Assembly (NCBI GenBank): GCA_017451395.1
Contig: JAFSPR010000058.1
Coordinates: 1-34,402, forward strand
Direction: 5' to 3'
DNA: 34,402 nucleotides
Source: Bacteroidales bacterium
GTDB taxonomy: Bacteria; Bacteroidota; Bacteroidia; Bacteroidales; UBA932
The notes below the pieces were generated by a model. The model was given only the letters and a program-made list of their open reading frames with translations. It had not been told where the DNA came from and made no database searches. Each line of letters begins with the position of its first letter. Position 1 is the first letter of the stretch. This document shows, in pieces, positions 25,204-33,909 of this stretch. Position numbers and translations under genes: made by a program.

Positions 25204-25706
25204 GAACATTTTACCCCCAAATCGCCCGTGCCCGGTCCCGCCGGGTACTCACCACGTACACTTTTGGCCCCAAACGTACGCGCTCAGTACCGCCCGGTAC
25301 TCGCCACGTACACTTTCGGCATTAAACGCACGTGCTCAGTACCGCCCGGTACTCACCGCGTACACTTTCGGCATTAAACGTCCGTGCTCAGTACCGTCCG
25401 GTACTCATCACGTACACTTTCGGCATTAAACGTCCGTGCTCAGTACCGCCCGGTACTCACGGTGTACACTTTCGGCATTAAACGTACGTCCTCAGTACCG
25501 TCCGGTACTCATCACGTACACTTTCGGCATTAAACGCACGTGCTCAGTACCGCCCGGTACTCACGGTGTACACTTTCGGCATTAAACGTACGTCCTCAGT
25601 ACCGTCCGGTACTCATCACGTACACTTTCGGCATTAAACGTCCGTGCTCAGTACCGCCCGGTACTCATCACGTACACTTTCGGCATTAATCGTCCGTGCT
25701 CAGTAC
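25204..25706. repeat. REP-like tandem array, left arm, 52-bp units
   Basis: About ten head-to-tail units start at 25204 (degenerate), 25256, 25308, 25360, 25412, 25464, 25516, 25568, 25620 and 25672, with exactly 52 bp between unit starts. Each unit reads GTACACTTTCGGCATTAAAC, then CTCAGTACCG-CCCGGTACTCA. The second part is a palindrome (AGTACCG / CGGTACT). Variants such as CCGTCC for CCGCCC keep the palindrome. The last unit is interrupted after 25706. The repeats contain no plausible gene. Confidence 0.92.
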
Positions 25707-25928: not shown

Positions 25929-26008
25929 CACTACAGGAAGCAAAAACGGCACCAGAACGTGCTGTAGTGCCGTTTCAGAAAAAAAGAAACGTTTCATTGT
26001 ATGAAACG
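25929..26008 (+). promoter_or_regulatory. Competing hairpins and palindrome upstream of the RAYT gene
   Basis: CACTACAG (25929-25936) can pair with CTGTAGTG (25962-25969). AAACGGCAC (25944-25952) can pair with GTGCCGTTT (25967-25975). The two stems share bases 25967-25969 and cannot both form fully. Next comes CGTTTCAT-TGT-ATGAAACG (25990-26008), a perfect 8-bp palindrome. A weak promoter, TTG at 25997-25999 then TTCCTTTG at 26021-26028, overlaps it. This could be a transposon end or an autoregulatory site. Confidence 0.5.
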
Positions 26009-26032
26009 GATAATAATTCTTTCCTTTGCGCT

Positions 26033-26947
26033 ATGAGAGACACACAAAAAAAGCGGGAAGAATACCGCACGCTTAAGAAAGGGTATTACCATTTCTGTAC
26101 TGATGGGCTTCAGGGCGAGCTCATCTTCAACAACGCCTTGCAATTCGCTTTCGGGATGTTCCTTATGGGACTGATCAGCATCCTGTGCGGGGTGCGGATA
26201 TATGCGTTCACGCTGATGCCCAACCATATCCATATAATACTCAGCGGCACCGGCGCGGACTGCCTGAAGGCATTTGACTATTTGAAGAGGAAGTTGTCCC
26301 TGAGGCTGGTCAAAGACGGATTCAGTCCTCTGCCGGCGGATTATTGGTTTAAATTGGTGCCGATTGAATCTGAGGAGCAGATGCGCTCTGAAATAGTTTA
26401 CGTGCTCCGCAATTGCCTTGAGGAAGGGCTTGGAGTGGTAGGCGGATACCTTTGGAGTTCGGGTTGGCTATACCATTCTGATGTTTCAAAACTTGTCAGC
26501 GGAACGCTTGCCGGACAGATCTCCTGCCGCCAGAGAAGGCAACTCCTGTTGGGAGATGTCGTCCTGCCGCCGGAGTGGATTGTTAATCCGTATATCGGCC
26601 TTCATCCTGGATCTTTTGTGGATACGTCCCTGGTGCTAAGGCTGTTTCCGGAGCCCAAAGATCTGCAGACTGCCCTGGTCAAGGACTATGAGGTAATGTT
26701 CCAGATTGCAAGACGGCTTGGAGAACTGCAGGAATTCAACAAGTCAGAGATAGATGGAATAGTGACCCACGTGCTGCAAAAACGGTTCTCCGGCCGGGAA
26801 CTGGGACAGTTGTCGGAAGAAGATAAGGGGAAGATGGCCATAATCCTCAGCCGTGACTTCGGGCTTAACTCCTATCAGATCTCAAAGTCAATATATATAA
26901 AGGAAAAGACCGTCCGGCAACTCCTTGCCTCCAAAGAATTACGCTGA
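26033..26947 (+). CDS. REP-associated tyrosine transposase (RAYT, HUH/Y1 family)
   Basis: A single-strand DNA nuclease/transposase of the IS200-like Y1 superfamily. With the ATG at 26033 it has 304 residues. The HUH motif is LMPNHIHII with His65 and His67. The likely nucleophile is Tyr123 in EIVYVLRN, followed by the family's WSSGWLYH segment. The C-terminal 90 residues carry a probable helix-turn-helix (LNSYQISKSIYIKEKTVRQLL, in part) beyond the Y1 core, as in RAYT proteins. A GTG at 25967 would add 22 residues but lies inside the hairpin region. Single copy, no IS200 ends, and 52-bp palindromic repeats on both sides make a domesticated RAYT more likely than a free insertion sequence. Confidence 0.85.
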   Translation: MRDTQKKREEYRTLKKGYYHFCTDGLQGELIFNNALQFAFGMFLMGLISILCGVRIYAFTLMPNHIHIILSGTGADCLKAFDYLKRKLSLRLVKDGFSPLPADYWFKLVPIESEEQMRSEIVYVLRNCLEEGLGVVGGYLWSSGWLYHSDVSKLVSGTLAGQISCRQRRQLLLGDVVLPPEWIVNPYIGLHPGSFVDTSLVLRLFPEPKDLQTALVKDYEVMFQIARRLGELQEFNKSEIDGIVTHVLQKRFSGRELGQLSEEDKGKMAIILSRDFGLNSYQISKSIYIKEKTVRQLLASKELR

Positions 26948-26959
26948 ATATAGGCCGAT

Positions 26960-27180
26960 GGTACTCATCACGTACACTTTCGGCCTTAAACGTCCGTGCT
27001 CAGTACCGCTGGGTACTCACCGCGTACACTTTCGGCATTAAACGTCCGTCCTCAGTACTGCCGGGTACTCACCGCGTACACTTTCGGCATTAAACGCCCG
27101 TGCTCAGTACTGCTGGGTACTCACGGTGTACACTTTAGGCATTAAACGTACGTGAACGGTACCCCGCGGGACTCATCATA
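26960..27180. repeat. REP-like tandem array, right arm
   Basis: Units of the same 52-bp family start at 26972, 27024, 27076 and 27128, again at exact 52-bp intervals. A decayed copy begins at about 27180. They run in the same orientation as the left arm. Palindrome variants here (CCGCTGGG, CTGCCGGG, CTGCTGGG) often keep pairing through G-T wobbles. Confidence 0.9.
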
Positions 27181-27543: not shown

Positions 27544-28179
27544 ATGAAACGGGTATTGATGCTCGTCGGCCTCATGGCCGCTGTTTTGGTTTCAGGAACT
27601 GCCAATGCGCAGTTGGTTTCAGAAAGGAAGGTTGAAAAAGACGCAAAAAAACAAGCCAAAGTGCTTGTGAAAGAAGGATGGAAGGTTGCTCCCGGACACC
27701 CTAGTATTGAGATGCAGCAGCTTAAAGCGGCCAAAATCAACAACACGATGGATGACAACTTCAACTCCAAGTATGTTGAGGGTAGCGCACAGGCAGTTGC
27801 TCCCACCTATGACGCGGCTAAATTCCAGGCCACAGAACTTGCCAAAATAAACATAGCCGGCAAGATTTCCAGCGATTTGGCTGGTATCGCCAAAACCAAT
27901 TTGGGAAATCAACAGATAAACCCGGAACAGGCAGAAAACATTGTCAAGACCATTGGCGCTTACAAGAATTTTGTGGCGACTAAGCTCACCAATATCATCT
28001 CCTGCGTGGATATGTATAAAATAGACCCCAAAAACGGGCAGTACACTGTGAGCATTGGTATCTATTACAATCGCGACGAGGCAATGAGGGCTGGGATGAA
28101 GGAAATCCGCGACCAGATGATGAAGGAAAGCGAAGAACTCGCTGAAGAACTTGACGACCTCCTGGGCCTGAAGAAGTGA
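27544..28179 (+). CDS. Exported LPP20-like protein, first gene of the caspase operon
   Basis: A 211-residue protein with a signal peptide (MKRVLMLVGLMAAVLVSGTANA, then QLVSERK). An Ala/Lys-rich helical part, about residues 85-150 (AAKFQATELAKINIAGKIS), resembles the LPP20/FlgT-like pattern in which conserved alanines pack a helix against a sheet. The C-terminal 35 residues form a charged probable coiled coil (EIRDQMMKESEELAEELDD). It lies 48 bp after the structured RNA and overlaps the next gene by 4 bp (GTGA). Probably periplasmic. The family call is tentative. Confidence 0.7.
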   Translation: MKRVLMLVGLMAAVLVSGTANAQLVSERKVEKDAKKQAKVLVKEGWKVAPGHPSIEMQQLKAAKINNTMDDNFNSKYVEGSAQAVAPTYDAAKFQATELAKINIAGKISSDLAGIAKTNLGNQQINPEQAENIVKTIGAYKNFVATKLTNIISCVDMYKIDPKNGQYTVSIGIYYNRDEAMRAGMKEIRDQMMKESEELAEELDDLLGLKK

Positions 28180-29039
28180 CGCGCCTTATTGTTGCCACAG
28201 GAGTAGTCTTGTTCTTGATGGCTACTCCTTCCTTTGCTCAGAAGACAAAGACTGTTTCCGGAACTTATACCTATGTGGTCCCGGAAACACAGTCGTTTGT
28301 CCAGGCAAAGGAAACGGCAATAGAGAAGGCGAAAATACAGATTTTGGCCGACACTTACGGGACTGTTATTGACATGTCGGCTGCTACATCGATAACCGGA
28401 GACGGAGCCCAGACGCTTGCTCTTTCGCAAAGCCAGGTGAAGGGCGAATGGCTTGAGACCATCGGAGAACCCGTTGTTACCCGTTTTTTTGACGGTGATC
28501 AAATGGCCGTGAAGGTAGAGATTCGCGGTAAAGTGAGAGAAATAATATCGGCCTCCACAGAATTCACTGCAAAAATCCTTTGCGGTGCACCAGACCCTAG
28601 ATTTGAAGGGGATACGTTTAAAAGTGGGGATGATATGTTTCTATACTTTCAGGCTCCAGGAGATGGATATTTGGCCGTTTATCTATATGACGGAGCAGAA
28701 GATGTCTTCTGTCTCCTTCCTTACCAGAGGCAGGGTAGCGGCATATTTGAGGTCAAGGGTGGGAAGCAATATATTTTTTTCTCGGCCGATATTTCCGATG
28801 GTCAAACCCCTTACGACTGGGTGGATGAGTACACCCTTACGGCGTCTTCTGCAGTAGAAATGAATCGCATATACATTATCTATTCGCCCAATCGGTTTAC
28901 GAAGGCAATGGATAGCATCTCTAATGCCGGTCTCCCGCGCGAACTGTCTTTTGAGAGTTTTCAAAAGTGGTTGTCCCGTATCCGGATAGAAGACCGCGCC
29001 GTCGGAGTAAAAAGTGTTGATATAACTATACAAAGTTAA
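28176..29039 (+). CDS. Exported DUF4384-domain protein
   Basis: A 287-residue protein starting at GTG 28176, overlapping the previous stop by 4 bp. It has a signal peptide (LIVATGVVLFLMATPSFA). Residues about 35-130 resemble the alanine-rich LPP20/FlgT-like fold also seen in the gene before. Residues about 135-220 match DUF4384 (TFKSGDDMFLYFQAPGDGYL, CLLPYQR, a glycine turn, then QYIFFSADI). DUF4384 is often found fused to or next to caspase-like peptidases in bacteria, which fits the C14 protein two genes downstream. No catalytic motif is visible, and a sensing or scaffolding role is likely. Confidence 0.78.
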   Translation: MTRLIVATGVVLFLMATPSFAQKTKTVSGTYTYVVPETQSFVQAKETAIEKAKIQILADTYGTVIDMSAATSITGDGAQTLALSQSQVKGEWLETIGEPVVTRFFDGDQMAVKVEIRGKVREIISASTEFTAKILCGAPDPRFEGDTFKSGDDMFLYFQAPGDGYLAVYLYDGAEDVFCLLPYQRQGSGIFEVKGGKQYIFFSADISDGQTPYDWVDEYTLTASSAVEMNRIYIIYSPNRFTKAMDSISNAGLPRELSFESFQKWLSRIRIEDRAVGVKSVDITIQS

Positions 29040-29048
29040 GTATTAATT

Positions 29049-29756
29049 ATGAAACGTTTATTAGTTACGGTGGTCTTGTTGAGTCTTACCATTATGTGTT
29101 TCTCTCAAGAAAGAGTTAAAAAGGTAATTGATTTGAAAAATGGAACGTCAGTTGCAGGCTTCGTTATGGAGCAGGAAGACGGTAGTTATCTGCTGGAAAC
29201 AGAGGCTGGTGATGTCTTGTTTTATACGGCTGAGGAGGTTAGAAGCGTAAGAATGCAGGGCGAAGAAAACAAAACAAGACCTAGTAGTAAGAGCAAAATA
29301 ACACCGTTAACAGAGGGACATATTCTAAAGAGGAATGGGTTCTCTCTTACATTCGCGGATTCTGGAGATGATTTACTCCCTGAGCAGGTGTCTACATCTT
29401 TTTGGAATGATTATCGTAAAGCGTCAAAGGGGAAGAGGGCTGGAATGTGGATTATGATTGGCGGAGGAGGTGTGGTAATAATAGGCTCCGCCCTTTCTGC
29501 GATAAAAACTGTTGAAGAGGGTTCTTATTGGAATGGCAATGGATATACTACATATCATAATGTAAATTCATCGCCAGTTGGAGCGATTGTTGCTTCTGTG
29601 GGAGCTGGCGTCGCAATCTTTGGCGCCGTTAAATTTTTCTCGGGCAATGCTAAACTGGGAAAACTTGCGAAGCAGTATAATTCACAGCACGGCTATTCTT
29701 CCGAATTGTCATTGGAAGTAGTCCCGACGGGACTAGCCTTTAAATATAGTTTCTAA
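29049..29756 (+). CDS. Exported membrane protein, paralogue of the last gene of the operon
   Basis: A 235-residue protein with a signal peptide (MKRLLVTVVLLSLTIMCFS). It then has a small beta domain (VIDLKNGTSVAGFVMEQEDGSYLLETEAGDV, read in two pieces at about 25-55) and two glycine-rich hydrophobic helices (about 135-160 and 175-200). The beta domain is almost the same as in the protein encoded at 32250-32915 (KNGTVLTGYVEVQQDG, LLETSAGDV). It lies 9 bp after the DUF4384 gene and 3 bp before the caspase gene. No named family recognised. Likely inner-membrane anchored. Confidence 0.72.
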   Translation: MKRLLVTVVLLSLTIMCFSQERVKKVIDLKNGTSVAGFVMEQEDGSYLLETEAGDVLFYTAEEVRSVRMQGEENKTRPSSKSKITPLTEGHILKRNGFSLTFADSGDDLLPEQVSTSFWNDYRKASKGKRAGMWIMIGGGGVVIIGSALSAIKTVEEGSYWNGNGYTTYHNVNSSPVGAIVASVGAGVAIFGAVKFFSGNAKLGKLAKQYNSQHGYSSELSLEVVPTGLAFKYSF

Positions 29757-29759
29757 ACT

Positions 29760-31886
29760 ATGGATAAGTTCGTTGCCATATTATTGGCGCTTGTGCTGAG
29801 CATAAATGCTTTAGCTCAGGATTATCCGCAACGGGTAAATGAGAATGGAAAGGTGGGATACAAGTTGTCGGGAAAGTGGATAGCGTCACCAGTATATGAG
29901 TATGGATCTGAGTTTAGGAATGGCTTTGCTATGGTAAGGCTGGATGGTAAATTCGGATTTATAGACGACAAGGGTAATATTGTTGTAAAATGTTTGTATA
30001 ATTCCTGTACTTTGTACGACGAAAACGGTGTGGCTACAGGAAAAATAGGGGAAACACGATATTATCTGGATAAAAATGGTAACGCTTTTCGCTCTATGGA
30101 TGAACTGAAGGCCGCTGCAATCCTAAAGTCATCGGACTATAAAAACAAGGCTAACAACTATTCTGTGGGAGATTACACTCCCACATTAGATGAATCAGGG
30201 AAGTGGGGATATAAGCAGTTCGGAGAATGGGTAATTAAACCACGTTTTGATGCAGCCGGTGACTTCGCTGACGGCTTGGCCGCAGTTTCTCTTGGTGGCA
30301 AATGGGGTTATATAGGAAAAAATGGGTCCAGTTCCATACCTTTCAAATATGAACAAGGTGGGGTCTTCGTTGATGGCCTTGCAAGGGTAAAGCTCTATGG
30401 AAAATGGGGCTTCATTGACAAAAGTGGAGCGACCGTCATTCCTTTTAAATATGCGATGGCGGCCGATTTTTCCAATGGTCTTGCTCATGTAAGCTATAAT
30501 GGGAAGAACGGTTATATAGACAAAACTGGAGAGTGGTTCGATTCTGAGGAAGAGATGATGCAAACTTTCAGTGCCTTTGCACGCCATTTTGTTGAGGCAG
30601 ACATAAACCAATGGCAAAAAAAAGGCAAATATGAGAAGATGGCGCAGTGGCAGAAGCGAGTAACAGATAGAAACAGAAAAGCAAGAATTGACTCTTTGGT
30701 TAGTGTTGCAAGGGAGAATTTTATAGCTTCAGAAAGTAAGAAGATTCGCTTGGATTATTCTATAGTAGACTATGACTCAGAGAGCGAAGTTTTTCTCGTT
30801 CACGATAAACGTTTCGGCAATTTACTTGTGCCGGTCCCTATACGTGAGGCCGAAAAATTTGAGAACTCATTCAGCGAGATTACTCGAAAAGATGTTTATT
30901 GTGTAAATGGTGATAATCTTGGTTTGAGAGAGGCTAAGTTTGTAACACCATATGGTCGCACATACAAGTACAACAACACAGCATCCCTTTCATTCGCCTC
31001 GTTGGATATTGACTACAATTTTGAAGCCGTCAATTTTGAGGAAGAGGCCCCTAAGGCGTCACGTGGAAGCCAAACTATAGCATCTGCGAATCTGCGGGTG
31101 GGGCAATCAGATGTGGATCAGAAAATTCCTGATACACATACTATCAATGACAATACATTCGCTCTAATCATTACTAATGAAAACTATAAATTTGTTTCGC
31201 AAGTTCCTTATGCTATTAATGATGGAAGGGTGTTTGAGGAATATTGTGTCAAAACATTAGGGCTTCCCAAAGATCACATTCATAGGGCCGAAGACGCTAC
31301 TTTTGGTATGGTTATGGGAGAGATGGATTGGATTACAAATATCGCCAAAGTTTACAAAGGCAAAGCGCGTATTATGGTATATTATGCGGGGCATGGTATT
31401 CCTGATGAAAGCACCCGCGATGCTTATCTTCTTCCGGTAGATGGTACAGGAAGCAATACTTCCACGGCGATAAAACTTTCCAGTATATATTCACGTTTGA
31501 ATGACAACCCCACGGAGTCTACGGTAGTATTTCTGGATGCCTGCTTTTCCGGCGCACAGCGTAATGGACAAATGCTGGCTCAGGCCCGTGGAGTCGCGAT
31601 CAAGGCTAAGGCCGAAAGACCTTCCGGAACGATGGTTGTCTTTTCCGCAGCTTCAGGAGACGAGACTGCATATCCATATAAAGAAAAAGGTCACGGACTG
31701 TTTTCTTACTTTCTTATGAAAAAAATCCAAGAGACACGAGGAGAAGCCACTCTTGGTGAACTTGCGGCATATATATCAGAAAACGTGAGTCAGCAGGCTA
31801 TAGTCCAAAATGCGAAAAGCCAGACTCCAACAGTTGTGCCTTCTGCCGAGATAGGTGATAAATGGAAAAATATAAAACTTAAATAA
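29760..31886 (+). CDS. Exported WG-repeat caspase-like peptidase (C14, orthocaspase)
   Basis: A 708-residue protein with a signal peptide (FVAILLALVLSINALAQ). Residues about 28-260 hold five or so WG repeats (KWGYI..., KWGFIDKSG, then an FxDGLA turn). A charged helical segment follows (about 270-325), then a region of unknown fold (about 330-460). The C14 caspase-like domain spans about 463-700. The catalytic dyad is visible: His545 in YYAGHGIP and Cys595 in LDACFSG, followed by the typical GHGLFSYFL. The enzyme is probably a cysteine endopeptidase cleaving after basic residues, as in other orthocaspases. Its export to the periplasm or surface is unusual and all its neighbours are exported too. 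WG repeats presumably bind a partner. Confidence 0.88.
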   Translation: MDKFVAILLALVLSINALAQDYPQRVNENGKVGYKLSGKWIASPVYEYGSEFRNGFAMVRLDGKFGFIDDKGNIVVKCLYNSCTLYDENGVATGKIGETRYYLDKNGNAFRSMDELKAAAILKSSDYKNKANNYSVGDYTPTLDESGKWGYKQFGEWVIKPRFDAAGDFADGLAAVSLGGKWGYIGKNGSSSIPFKYEQGGVFVDGLARVKLYGKWGFIDKSGATVIPFKYAMAADFSNGLAHVSYNGKNGYIDKTGEWFDSEEEMMQTFSAFARHFVEADINQWQKKGKYEKMAQWQKRVTDRNRKARIDSLVSVARENFIASESKKIRLDYSIVDYDSESEVFLVHDKRFGNLLVPVPIREAEKFENSFSEITRKDVYCVNGDNLGLREAKFVTPYGRTYKYNNTASLSFASLDIDYNFEAVNFEEEAPKASRGSQTIASANLRVGQSDVDQKIPDTHTINDNTFALIITNENYKFVSQVPYAINDGRVFEEYCVKTLGLPKDHIHRAEDATFGMVMGEMDWITNIAKVYKGKARIMVYYAGHGIPDESTRDAYLLPVDGTGSNTSTAIKLSSIYSRLNDNPTESTVVFLDACFSGAQRNGQMLAQARGVAIKAKAERPSGTMVVFSAASGDETAYPYKEKGHGLFSYFLMKKIQETRGEATLGELAAYISENVSQQAIVQNAKSQTPTVVPSAEIGDKWKNIKLK

Positions 31887-31901
31887 TTAAATAGAATTGT
31901 C

Positions 31902-32243
31902 ATGAAAACTCGTTTGGTTTTACTAGTTTCTATGTTTGTTATGGCGTGTGCCTTATGCTTATCTTGTAAAAAAGGCGCTCAAAATCTAAAATCTTTAGCA
32001 GGGACTTCATGGGTGAGTTATCAAGAGAGTGGAGAGATCTCGATTAATTTCCAGAACTCGACATTTACTATAACCGAAATTGATGATGGAAATGCTGAAG
32101 GAGTTATGGCTGGGACATATGTTTTCTCATTCCCGAATGTTACACTCACTTTTACCAATGAGGATGGGTACACGGAATCGTTGCCTGGAATTCTAAGTGG
32201 CGATAACCTGCTATTAATGGAGTATGTTTTTGTCAGGAGATAG
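31902..32243 (+). CDS. Small lipoprotein, lipocalin-like fold possible
   Basis: A 113-residue lipoprotein with signal MKTRLVLLVSMFVMACALCLSC (lipobox cysteine at about residue 22). The mature 90 residues are nearly all beta strand: GTSWVSYQESGEISINF, STFTITEID, GTYVFSFPNVTLTF and a closing LLLMEYVFVRR. The pattern recalls lipocalin-like META/DUF domains of Bacteroidota, but no certain family match can be made. It lies 15 bp after the caspase gene and 6 bp before the next one. A periplasmic inhibitor or adaptor for the peptidase is possible but is guesswork. Confidence 0.68.
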   Translation: MKTRLVLLVSMFVMACALCLSCKKGAQNLKSLAGTSWVSYQESGEISINFQNSTFTITEIDDGNAEGVMAGTYVFSFPNVTLTFTNEDGYTESLPGILSGDNLLLMEYVFVRR

Positions 32244-32249
32244 TAAATT

Positions 32250-32915
32250 ATGGCGACTAGAAAATTATTAATCATTTGTCTTTTATTATTTATTTTCCCG
32301 TTCATTTTGATGGCGCAAGAAAAAGAAGAAAAGCGCTTAGAATTGAAAAACGGGACCGTGCTCACAGGTTATGTAGAGGTGCAACAAGACGGATCCTATC
32401 TTTTAGAGACAAGTGCCGGCGATGTTTTCTTTTTCTCCCCTTCAGAAGTGGCCAAGGTTATGTCATTATTGCCTGCATCTCAGCAAACGACGGGCGTTTC
32501 TGATTATTTTGACGGGAAAACTGTAGACAAGCGAAGAGGAAAGATATATATGCTTGCAACAGAAGAAGAACTTACGAAGAATGATTTCATGACTTATCAG
32601 GGCTGGGAAAAATACCAAAAAGCCAAGAAAACCAGAAAAACAGGTAACATCTTATTGATATCTGCGGGAGGAGTTGCTGGTTTGGGGTTAGTGCTTGGTG
32701 GGACTTTTGCGATCATCGAGGAAGACGAAGACCCGTTAATTGCAGCAGCTGTGGGATTTGGGATAGGAGCCTTGACAGCAATACCGGGATTAATCCTTTG
32801 TATTTCAGGAAACAAACAACTCATAAAAATCCAAGACGCTTACAATCAGACTCCTGGTTATGTCCTTGATTTTGGTGTACAGCAACATGGTGTTGGATTT
32901 GCGTTGAAGTTCTAA
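32250..32915 (+). CDS. Exported membrane protein closing the caspase operon
   Basis: A 221-residue paralogue of the protein encoded at 29049-29756. It has a signal-like N-terminus (LLIICLLLFIFPFILMA), the same small beta domain (KNGTVLTGYVEV, DGSYLLETSAGDVFFF), a charged middle, then two hydrophobic helices (ILLISAGGVAGLGLVLGGTF; AAAVGFGIGALTAIPGLILC). The C-terminus is FGVQQHGVGFALKF, similar to VVPTGLAFKYSF in the paralogue. The two thus flank the caspase/lipoprotein pair. The terminator at 32937 ends the unit. Confidence 0.72.
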   Translation: MATRKLLIICLLLFIFPFILMAQEKEEKRLELKNGTVLTGYVEVQQDGSYLLETSAGDVFFFSPSEVAKVMSLLPASQQTTGVSDYFDGKTVDKRRGKIYMLATEEELTKNDFMTYQGWEKYQKAKKTRKTGNILLISAGGVAGLGLVLGGTFAIIEEDEDPLIAAAVGFGIGALTAIPGLILCISGNKQLIKIQDAYNQTPGYVLDFGVQQHGVGFALKF

Positions 32916-32936
32916 TCAGCACCTTTCCACAGTTTT

Positions 32937-32976
32937 AACAGGTCACGAATTCCAATGTTCGCGGCCTGTTTTGTTT
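32937..32976 (+). terminator. Intrinsic terminator of the caspase operon
   Basis: AACAGGTCACGAA (32937-32949) pairs with TTCGCGGCCTGTT (32958-32970) with one wobble and one mismatch, over an eight-base loop. The T-rich TTGTTT follows. It lies 22 bp after the last stop codon. Confidence 0.75.
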
Positions 32977-32993
32977 CTGCTCGGAACTGTGTG

Positions 32994-33177: not shown

Positions 33178-33209
33178 TTTGGAAAATAAAATATTTATCC
33201 GTATCTTTG
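33178..33209 (+). promoter_or_regulatory. Canonical promoter of the rplC ribosomal-protein operon
   Basis: TTTG at 33178-33181 and TATCTTTG at 33202-33209 are 20 bp apart, a full match to the Bacteroidota primary-sigma promoter. Transcription should begin near 33215, leaving a leader of about 70 nt before the rplC ATG. The leader contains a nine-codon ORF (33240-33269) of unknown relevance. Confidence 0.75.
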
Positions 33210-33282: not shown

Positions 33283-33909
33283 ATGCCTGGTATTATTGGA
33301 AAGAAAGTCGGAATGATTTCCGTCTTCGGTGCCGACGGTAAGAATATACCGTGCACCGTCATCGAGGCTGGTCCGTGTGTTGTCACGCAAATCCGCACCG
33401 TGGAAACCGACGGTTACGCCGCAGTGCAGCTTGCCTATGACGAAAAGAAAGAGAAACGGACAAGCGCGGCCCTGAAGGGTCATTTTGAAAAGGCTGGCAC
33501 CACTCCCAAGAAGAAACTTGTGGAATTCCCCGCAGACTTCGCCGGAGAGGTCAAGCTTGGAGACACCATCACCGTCTCTGACATTTTCACTGAGGATGTC
33601 AAGTTCATCGACGTTGTTGGTACTTCTAAAGGTAAGGGTTTCCAGGGCGTAGTAAAGCGCCACGGATTCGCCGGTGTCGGTGGTGTGACCCACGGTCAGC
33701 ACAACCGTCTCCGTCACCCTGGTTCCATGGGTGCATCCTCATGGCCTTCACGCGTATTCCCCGGAATGCGTATGGCAGGTCACATGGGTAACGAGCGCGT
33801 TAAGGTTTTCAACCTTGAGGTCCTCAAAGTTATCCCTGAGAGCAACCTCGTAGTAGTAAAGGGTTCCGTTCCCGGAGCCAAAGGTTCTTACTTAATTCTG
33901 GAGGACTAA
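33283..33909 (+). CDS. rplC: 50S ribosomal protein L3
   Basis: A 208-residue L3, which binds near the 3' end of 23S rRNA and helps start 50S assembly. The N-terminus GIIGKKVGM and the central [25 protein letters not shown] region (read in parts at about 125-150) are hallmark L3 segments. The methylatable glutamine lies in HGQHN. It is the first gene after the promoter. The gene that normally precedes it in Bacteroidota, rpsJ, is not present in this window. Codon use is of the highly expressed type (CGT, GGT, AAG rich). Confidence 0.96.

Follow-up and report, generated by a model that had tools for sequence, protein, structure and literature searches.

A predicted exported caspase of a Bacteroidales bacterium and two partner genes that recur beside some of its relatives

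Described caspases and organization of the locus

Bacterial caspases are best known as cytosolic defence or death proteases; those linked to bacterial gasdermins come with dedicated partner genes and act as cytosolic cell-death devices. Here, we analysed a 34,402-nucleotide contig of a Bacteroidales bacterium (GenBank JAFSPR010000058.1, hereafter the window), part of a 2.15-Mb assembly (GCA_017451395.1) in 133 contigs that is 81% complete. The window carries a run of six plus-strand genes (g1 to g6, positions 27544-32915) built around a C14 caspase with WG repeats, g4. Comparison of gene neighbourhoods shows that the recurrent core of this run is g1, g2 and the caspase, that g3, g5 and g6 are local additions, and that g1 and g2 form a module that joins part of the exported caspases, chiefly those of a single clade. 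Our preferred, though tentative, interpretation is that the run encodes an exported, self-cleaving envelope caspase system with g1, g2 and the caspase as its core, specific for Arg or Lys and tethered to or activated on a scaffold of the LPP20/FlgT type. A Pfam search of the six proteins gave no gasdermin match.

Orthocaspases and paracaspases (MALT1 and its prokaryotic homologues) share with g4 the C14 domain, the His/Cys dyad and an S1 acid pair aligned with MALT1 Asp365/Asp462, whereas the present proteins are predicted to be exported, with an exchangeable front end (WG, LRR_5, TPR or CARDB) on the caspase and LPP20-like and FlgT_N/DUF4384 partners. The nearest NCBIfam model of the g4 caspase domain is the EACC1-associated caspase (NF047832, E 5.6e-18), but the score of 65.2 bits is far below its cut-off of 140. 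Exported caspases are not new in general: a survey of 2012 described caspase homologues with an N-terminal hydrophobic segment read as a possible signal peptide, as well as caspase operons containing genes for the cell surface, 14 of them with OmpA (PMC3501461). The operon section of this survey does not describe the LPP20/DUF4384 module. Likewise, no exported caspase with LPP20/DUF4384 partners is described in the titles and abstract beginnings among the matches listed from the open-licence literature. An earlier note on this DNA, made from the sequence alone, had presented an exported caspase as different from the cytosolic kind; this holds for the recurrent exported partners but not for the possible signal peptides and surface operons, known since 2012. 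A 2019 study reported alphaproteobacterial QC caspases with DUF4384 and read cyanobacterial pseudo-orthocaspases with a signal like that of twin-arginine translocation as exported (PMC6426788). In the former, DUF4384 shares its chain with a trypsin-like domain and the dyad is QC, whereas here the proteins are separate, predicted Sec substrates, and the dyad is HC; the latter are catalytically altered, whereas the window caspase has the HC dyad and a Sec signal. Finally, the predicted SHS2-like core of g1 and the FlgT_N-like part of g2 may resemble LPP20/FlgP/FlgT proteins of outer-membrane rings and disks (PMC12222027), but here there is no flagellar gene among the six, the insert in the g1 model is helical rather than a beta-hairpin, and the partner is a protease.

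The earlier note had described a run with gaps of at most 16 bp and its own terminator, and both features stand. The listing of open reading frames (ORFs) places all six genes at the coordinates given beforehand, with intergenic gaps of -4, 9, 3, 15 and 6 bases; the GTG start of g2 shares 4 bases (GTGA) with the end of g1. The terminator hairpin folds at -19 kcal/mol (region 32930-32985, z -3.55, none of 200 shuffles as good), although a simple terminator pattern scan of the window did not list it. The features are as follows.

27544..28179, plus strand: g1, 211 amino acids; predicted Sec signal peptide (ANA/Q site), then an LPP20/SHS2-like domain
28176..29039, plus strand: g2, 287 amino acids; signal peptide SFA/Q, N-terminal part resembling FlgT_N, then DUF4384 (residues 147-237)
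29049..29756, plus strand: g3, 235 amino acids; signal peptide CFS/Q, domain with LKNGT...DGSYLLET.AGDV, two C-terminal hydrophobic segments (by eye); g6 paralogue
29760..31886, plus strand: g4, 708 amino acids; signal peptide ALA/Q, WG repeats and a middle region, with the C14 caspase domain at the C terminus
29847..30540, plus strand: WG-repeat region of g4 (limits approximate, by eye); Pfam PF14903 matches in five stretches, the best of them residues 154-182
31104..31883, plus strand: C14 caspase domain of g4 (Pfam PF00656, alignments), with Asp488, His545, Asp593, Cys595, Arg601 and Arg610
31392..31394, plus strand: codon of catalytic His545; His conserved in 59 of the 61 domains aligned
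31542..31544, plus strand: codon of catalytic Cys595; Cys conserved in 59 of the 61 domains aligned
31587..31589, plus strand: codon of Arg610, a candidate self-cleavage site in the loop that follows Cys595; Arg or Lys in 56 of the 61 domains
31902..32243, plus strand: g5, 113 amino acids; perhaps a small lipoprotein, with cysteines at 16 and 22; no family match
32250..32915, plus strand: g6, 221 amino acids; signal peptide LMA/Q; g3 paralogue
32937..32970, plus strand: intrinsic-terminator-like hairpin followed by a T-rich stretch

Linkage of g1, g2 and the caspase across genomes

A search of 61 genomes, with inspection of the neighbourhoods of the best matches, found g1, g2 and a caspase together in a genome of the same genus (G032) and in two of other families (G056 and G060); in a further genome (G013), a diverged g1-g2 pair adjoins a caspase. 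A scan of genome contigs gave a single poor relative. Caspase-domain relatives occur in 3 of the 36 same-genus genomes searched, many of which are incomplete. Among 393 genomes of the order, a g2 profile of five sequences gave 76 matches in 69 genomes, the caspase domain was detected in at least 148 genomes at E 1e-10, and g1 in 52 at E 0.001. The caspase search covered the best 150 matches, with at most six candidates scored per genome, and caspase counts, including those beside weak g2 matches, are lower bounds. Neighbourhoods, gene orders, export shares, the Arg/Lys columns, the correlation, the re-check of g2-less caspases and the tree are based on ORFs from a simple caller that takes the longest frame and leaves the starts unrefined. 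Genes were considered linked when they share a strand and lie no more than 5 kb apart.

All 18 g2 matches of at least 190 bits, a cut-off set after an inspection of neighbourhoods, are linked to a caspase, and 12 of the 18 to g1. Leaving out the genomes that supplied queries (G000, which is that of the window, G056 and G060), the linkage is 15 of 15. These 18 loci come from 16 of the 393 genomes and 11 family codes, and their gene order varies; the rough chance expectation is 0.08 linked matches, though owing to shared descent the 18 are not fully independent. None of the next four g2 matches (166-185 bits, all of family f83) has a caspase at this distance. Among weaker matches, a caspase belonging to the best 150 lies beside at least 5 of 23 (100-190 bits) and at least 12 of 35 (below 100 bits), and some g2 genes, with or without g1, have no caspase in the fetched stretch. 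In a search of 296 genomes across the phylum, g2 was found at E 1e-20 in the window's own genome only, and within this sample its close relatives thus seem confined to the order.

The reverse linkage is looser. The best 150 caspase matches include 107 of at least 300 bits, of which 31 have a linked g2, 18 a linked g1, and 76 no linked g2. Iterated profiles found neither g1 nor g2 in any of 20 of these 76 g2-less stretches, some of which stop at contig ends; the 20 were the top of the g2-less list, leaving out G059:C5 (locus L036, without g2) and G228:C146. A caspase that always needs g1/g2 was thus rejected. The objection foreseen in the earlier note, that caspase homologues might regularly lack these neighbours, is therefore half borne out, since conversely every close g2 match has its caspase. 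Its view of all six genes as one dedicated unit had to be given up, because g3, g5 and g6 lie outside the recurrent core. On the other hand, linkage of the caspase with g1/g2 is well supported.

A tree of 79 caspase domains was used to compare the distribution of g2 with caspase kinship; most rows had been fetched for g2 or kinship and 20 were added as g2-less, so this non-random set gives no frequencies. The window caspase falls in a set of 28 rows, 22 of them with g2, that has a support of 99 in the Shimodaira-Hasegawa-like approximate likelihood ratio test (SH-aLRT, quick method). Over the whole tree, the g2 label requires 17 changes against 25.8 for shuffled labels, and 1 of 500 shuffles was as low. 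The five rows nearest the window caspase (L167, L161, L160, L169 and L159) all lack g2; therefore, the module has been gained or lost near the window caspase. Over 38 loci, the pattern of identities in g2 shows a modest correlation with that in the caspase (Spearman 0.27, a value reached in 3 of 2000 permutations), 4 of the 42 paired loci (L104, L131, L135 and L140) having been left out.

A domain scan of 43 caspases, namely that of the window and 42 with g2 nearby (of 44, both L104 caspases being left out), detected C14 in all 43, CARDB in 10, TPR_14 in 7, LRR_5 in 6 and WG in 5. Since the WG, LRR_5 and TPR forms are all present within the 28-row set, the front end has been exchanged while g2 stays. 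Two divergent caspases were also noticed. The second caspase of the window genome (L154, G000:C42), a 1129-residue frame, has a signal-like start (AKA/Q) and places the caspase domain first, followed by Sel1/TPR-like repeats (by eye). In L084 (5740-7578), a g1-g2-linked caspase matches the profile without the usual His/Cys motifs, as judged by pattern, and is perhaps an inactive form.

Export signals, catalytic residues and partner proteins

Signal peptidase I sites were predicted in g1 (ANA/QLV), g2 (SFA/QKT), g3 (CFS/QER), g4 (ALA/QDY) and g6 (LMA/QEK). All five have Gln at +1, the criterion for Bacteroidetes substrates of this peptidase, although the site scorer itself favours Q. This Q-rule, Gln directly after the signal peptidase I site, has a mean predicted share of 71% across Bacteroidetes species (PMC5837995). 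In the fetched loci, Q-rule sites are found in 23 of 40 g1, 58 of 78 g2 and 46 of 60 caspases, against 177 of the 758 other ORFs; 5 further g1 and 3 further caspases carry a lipobox instead. For g5, candidate lipobox cysteines are present at 16 (VMAC) and 22 (CLSC), but the plain lipobox pattern failed. The claim of a signal peptide or lipobox on every product is thus borne out for five, with g5 in doubt. Collectively, Sec-dependent export of all six is well supported, with predicted Q-rule cleavage by signal peptidase I for five and possible lipidation for the sixth. Because of the Q-rule sites, it is unlikely that the signal peptides are hydrophobic starts of cytosolic proteins, an objection also foreseen in the earlier note; together with the recurrent linkage, these sites agree with its picture of an envelope-located caspase with exported partners.

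The predicted architecture of g4 was confirmed by Pfam: WG_beta_rep matches over five stretches (E 2e-44) and Peptidase_C14 at E 8e-19, with 68.7 bits against a curated cut-off of 21.4; the chain ends shortly after the C14 domain. The dyad His545/Cys595 is intact, each residue being conserved in 59 of the 61 aligned domains (that of the window included), and the acidic S1 residues Asp488 and Asp593 are found in 60 and 61 of them. The single g4 caspase sequence had no match among PDB sequences; only the family profile reached MALT1 and a metacaspase. In this profile alignment, Asp488 and Asp593 fall on two aspartates 97 residues apart, which is the spacing of MALT1 Asp365 and Asp462, while the third MALT1 acid, Glu500, lies outside the mapping. 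According to a structural review, Asp365 and Asp462 are S1 acids for P1 arginine (PMC4357240). From these conserved residues, we infer that g4 probably has the Arg/Lys specificity of MALT1, metacaspases and orthocaspases. Among columns filled in at least 50 of the 61 rows, only 601 and 610 are Arg or Lys in at least 85%, and the corresponding residues of g4, Arg601 and Arg610, lie 6 and 15 residues past Cys595. Activation of caspases commonly involves a cut in the loop that follows the catalytic Cys, and Arg601/Arg610 could be self-cleavage sites.

The earlier note had named DUF4384 and LPP20-like partners. For g2, DUF4384 (PF14326) stays slightly under its curated cut-off (26.3 against 27 bits) but is matched by 26 of 32 family members, window included, at E 0.1 or better (best 2.5e-9); FlgT_N is matched in 6 of the 32. 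For g1, Pfam LPP20 has no match in the window protein and matches 3 of 31 family members weakly (best E 0.0028), while DUF6488 matches 5 of 31 as weakly. A g1 model of modest quality comprises a strand, a long helix, a helical insert, two strands and a C-terminal helix; VIA-align ranked H. pylori Lpp20 first for this predicted fold, while Foldseek gave no significant match. FlgT (3W1E) and FlgP are not among the VIA-align matches listed, which proves nothing. In the LPP20/FlgP family, a beta-hairpin insert has been linked to ring formation (PMC12222027), and the helical insert of the g1 model, modest as it is, counts against such an insert here. Searches of PDB sequences with the g1 and g2 profiles found nothing (best E 0.47 and 0.91). 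The profile-profile match between g1 and g2, of 57 columns at 58% probability, is too weak to establish homology of their domains. The proteins g3 and g6 are paralogous (31% identity, E 1e-25), which the earlier note had missed. A 165-residue relative of the C-terminal half of g6 was seen in L157 (G000:C55) near a lipoprotein-like ORF, presumably OmpA-like.

Other caspase loci contain accessory genes. An exported-looking partner of about 490-530 residues recurs in L034 (11010-12467), L083, L085, L088, L089, L090, L105 and L117, and the 635-residue ORF of L086 has a similar end. Cys405, His432 and Asp459 are invariant in all 8 aligned sequences of this partner (DCEDR motif), and the five sequences scanned match no Pfam family; it may be transglutaminase/LapG-like. 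A search of the window's own genome with the L034 partner gave no match, but the empty result of that search shows nothing. Beta-propeller proteins of WD40 type with signal-like starts adjoin large caspases in L087 (2960-5167) and L088 (927-2999), and genes like them in length and end are present in L086, L089 and L090. The L082 accessory gene encodes a beta-barrel.

Possible function, alternatives and neighbouring sequence

Our preferred reading could be pictured as follows. The products of g1 and g2, resembling the LPP20/FlgP/FlgT fold family of outer-membrane rings and disks, would assemble into an oligomeric platform on the outer membrane, at its inner face. With its exchangeable repeat domain (WG here; LRR_5, TPR or CARDB elsewhere), the caspase would dock to this platform or read a ligand there, and crowding would provoke self-cleavage in the basic loop past Cys595, at Arg601/Arg610. 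Upon an envelope change, the active caspase would then cut a single protein, or a few, of the envelope or the surface. The role proposed in the earlier note, in sensing, surface stress or self/non-self recognition, is conjectural. We infer the platform, the trigger, the self-cleavage and the substrate alike. It is doubtful, at present, that one can go as far as a periplasmic caspase activation platform, in which an outer-membrane LPP20/FlgT-type assembly would recruit the repeat-bearing protease and activate it by crowding, as an extracytoplasmic counterpart of the apoptosome or inflammasome. The comparison reveals a recurrent two-protein module beside exported caspases in 11 family codes of one order. 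If the preferred reading is true, caspase-type proteolysis is also a tool of envelope signalling or maturation, and the flagellar-disk fold family has a second job beside a protease. Since the core comprises only three genes, this is directly testable.

A possible, though rather unlikely, alternative is that the exported caspase is a maturation protease, which acts on proteins of its own operon or on others of the surface (adhesins, barrels, lipoproteins) while they are assembled, in the way that dedicated envelope proteases trim adhesins, with g1/g2 holding the substrate and no sensing involved. The S1 acids fit a basic P1, and envelope-type accessory genes do occur: the L082 barrel, the L087/L088 propellers and the partner with invariant Cys, His and Asp. 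However, no single accessory gene is present in all operons compared, and the exchangeable repeats look more like recognition of varied ligands than of one substrate.

A role in envelope defence or cell death, in which phage adsorption, contact-dependent attack or damage to the envelope would trigger the protease to kill or seal the cell, is unlikely. Such a role would agree with the patchy spread of the caspase within the genus and of close g2 within the order, and with a match of the PADLOC 'caspase' model to g4 (E 4e-9); surface or fratricidal roles were also proposed in the 2012 survey (PMC3501461). On the other hand, the five other proteins have no NCBIfam or PADLOC family at a meaningful score, their best PADLOC match (E 0.027) not exceeding chance among systems described up to 2023, and Pfam and NCBIfam reveal no pore-former or nuclease in the run. 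Neither was the caspase domain matched in 50,697 phage records nor g2 in 72,556 plasmid records. It is highly improbable that six exported genes are merely co-transcribed without joint function: caspases often lack g1/g2, but the 18 of 18 linkage, the varied gene orders and the clustering on the tree disfavour this for g1, g2 and g4, while it is possible for g3, g5 and g6, outside the recurrent core.

Upstream of the run, a 326-residue ORF (25967-26947) has weak similarity to Y1_Tnp/REP-associated tyrosine transposases, under both the Pfam and NCBIfam cut-offs, and is flanked by two arrays of one 52-bp tandem repeat (25227-25706, 9.2 copies; 26960-27154, 3.8 copies), with diverged pieces on five further contigs of the genome. 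Downstream, rplC (33283-33909) is preceded by a promoter-like TATCTTTGC at 33202, presumably a Bacteroides -7 box, though the motif occurs 6 times in the window against 4.5 expected and is thus no proof. Although rplC and rpsJ are usually neighbours, there is no rpsJ before this rplC; the sole Ribosomal_S10 match of the genome lies on another contig (C66), and the separation may be a real split or an assembly fault.

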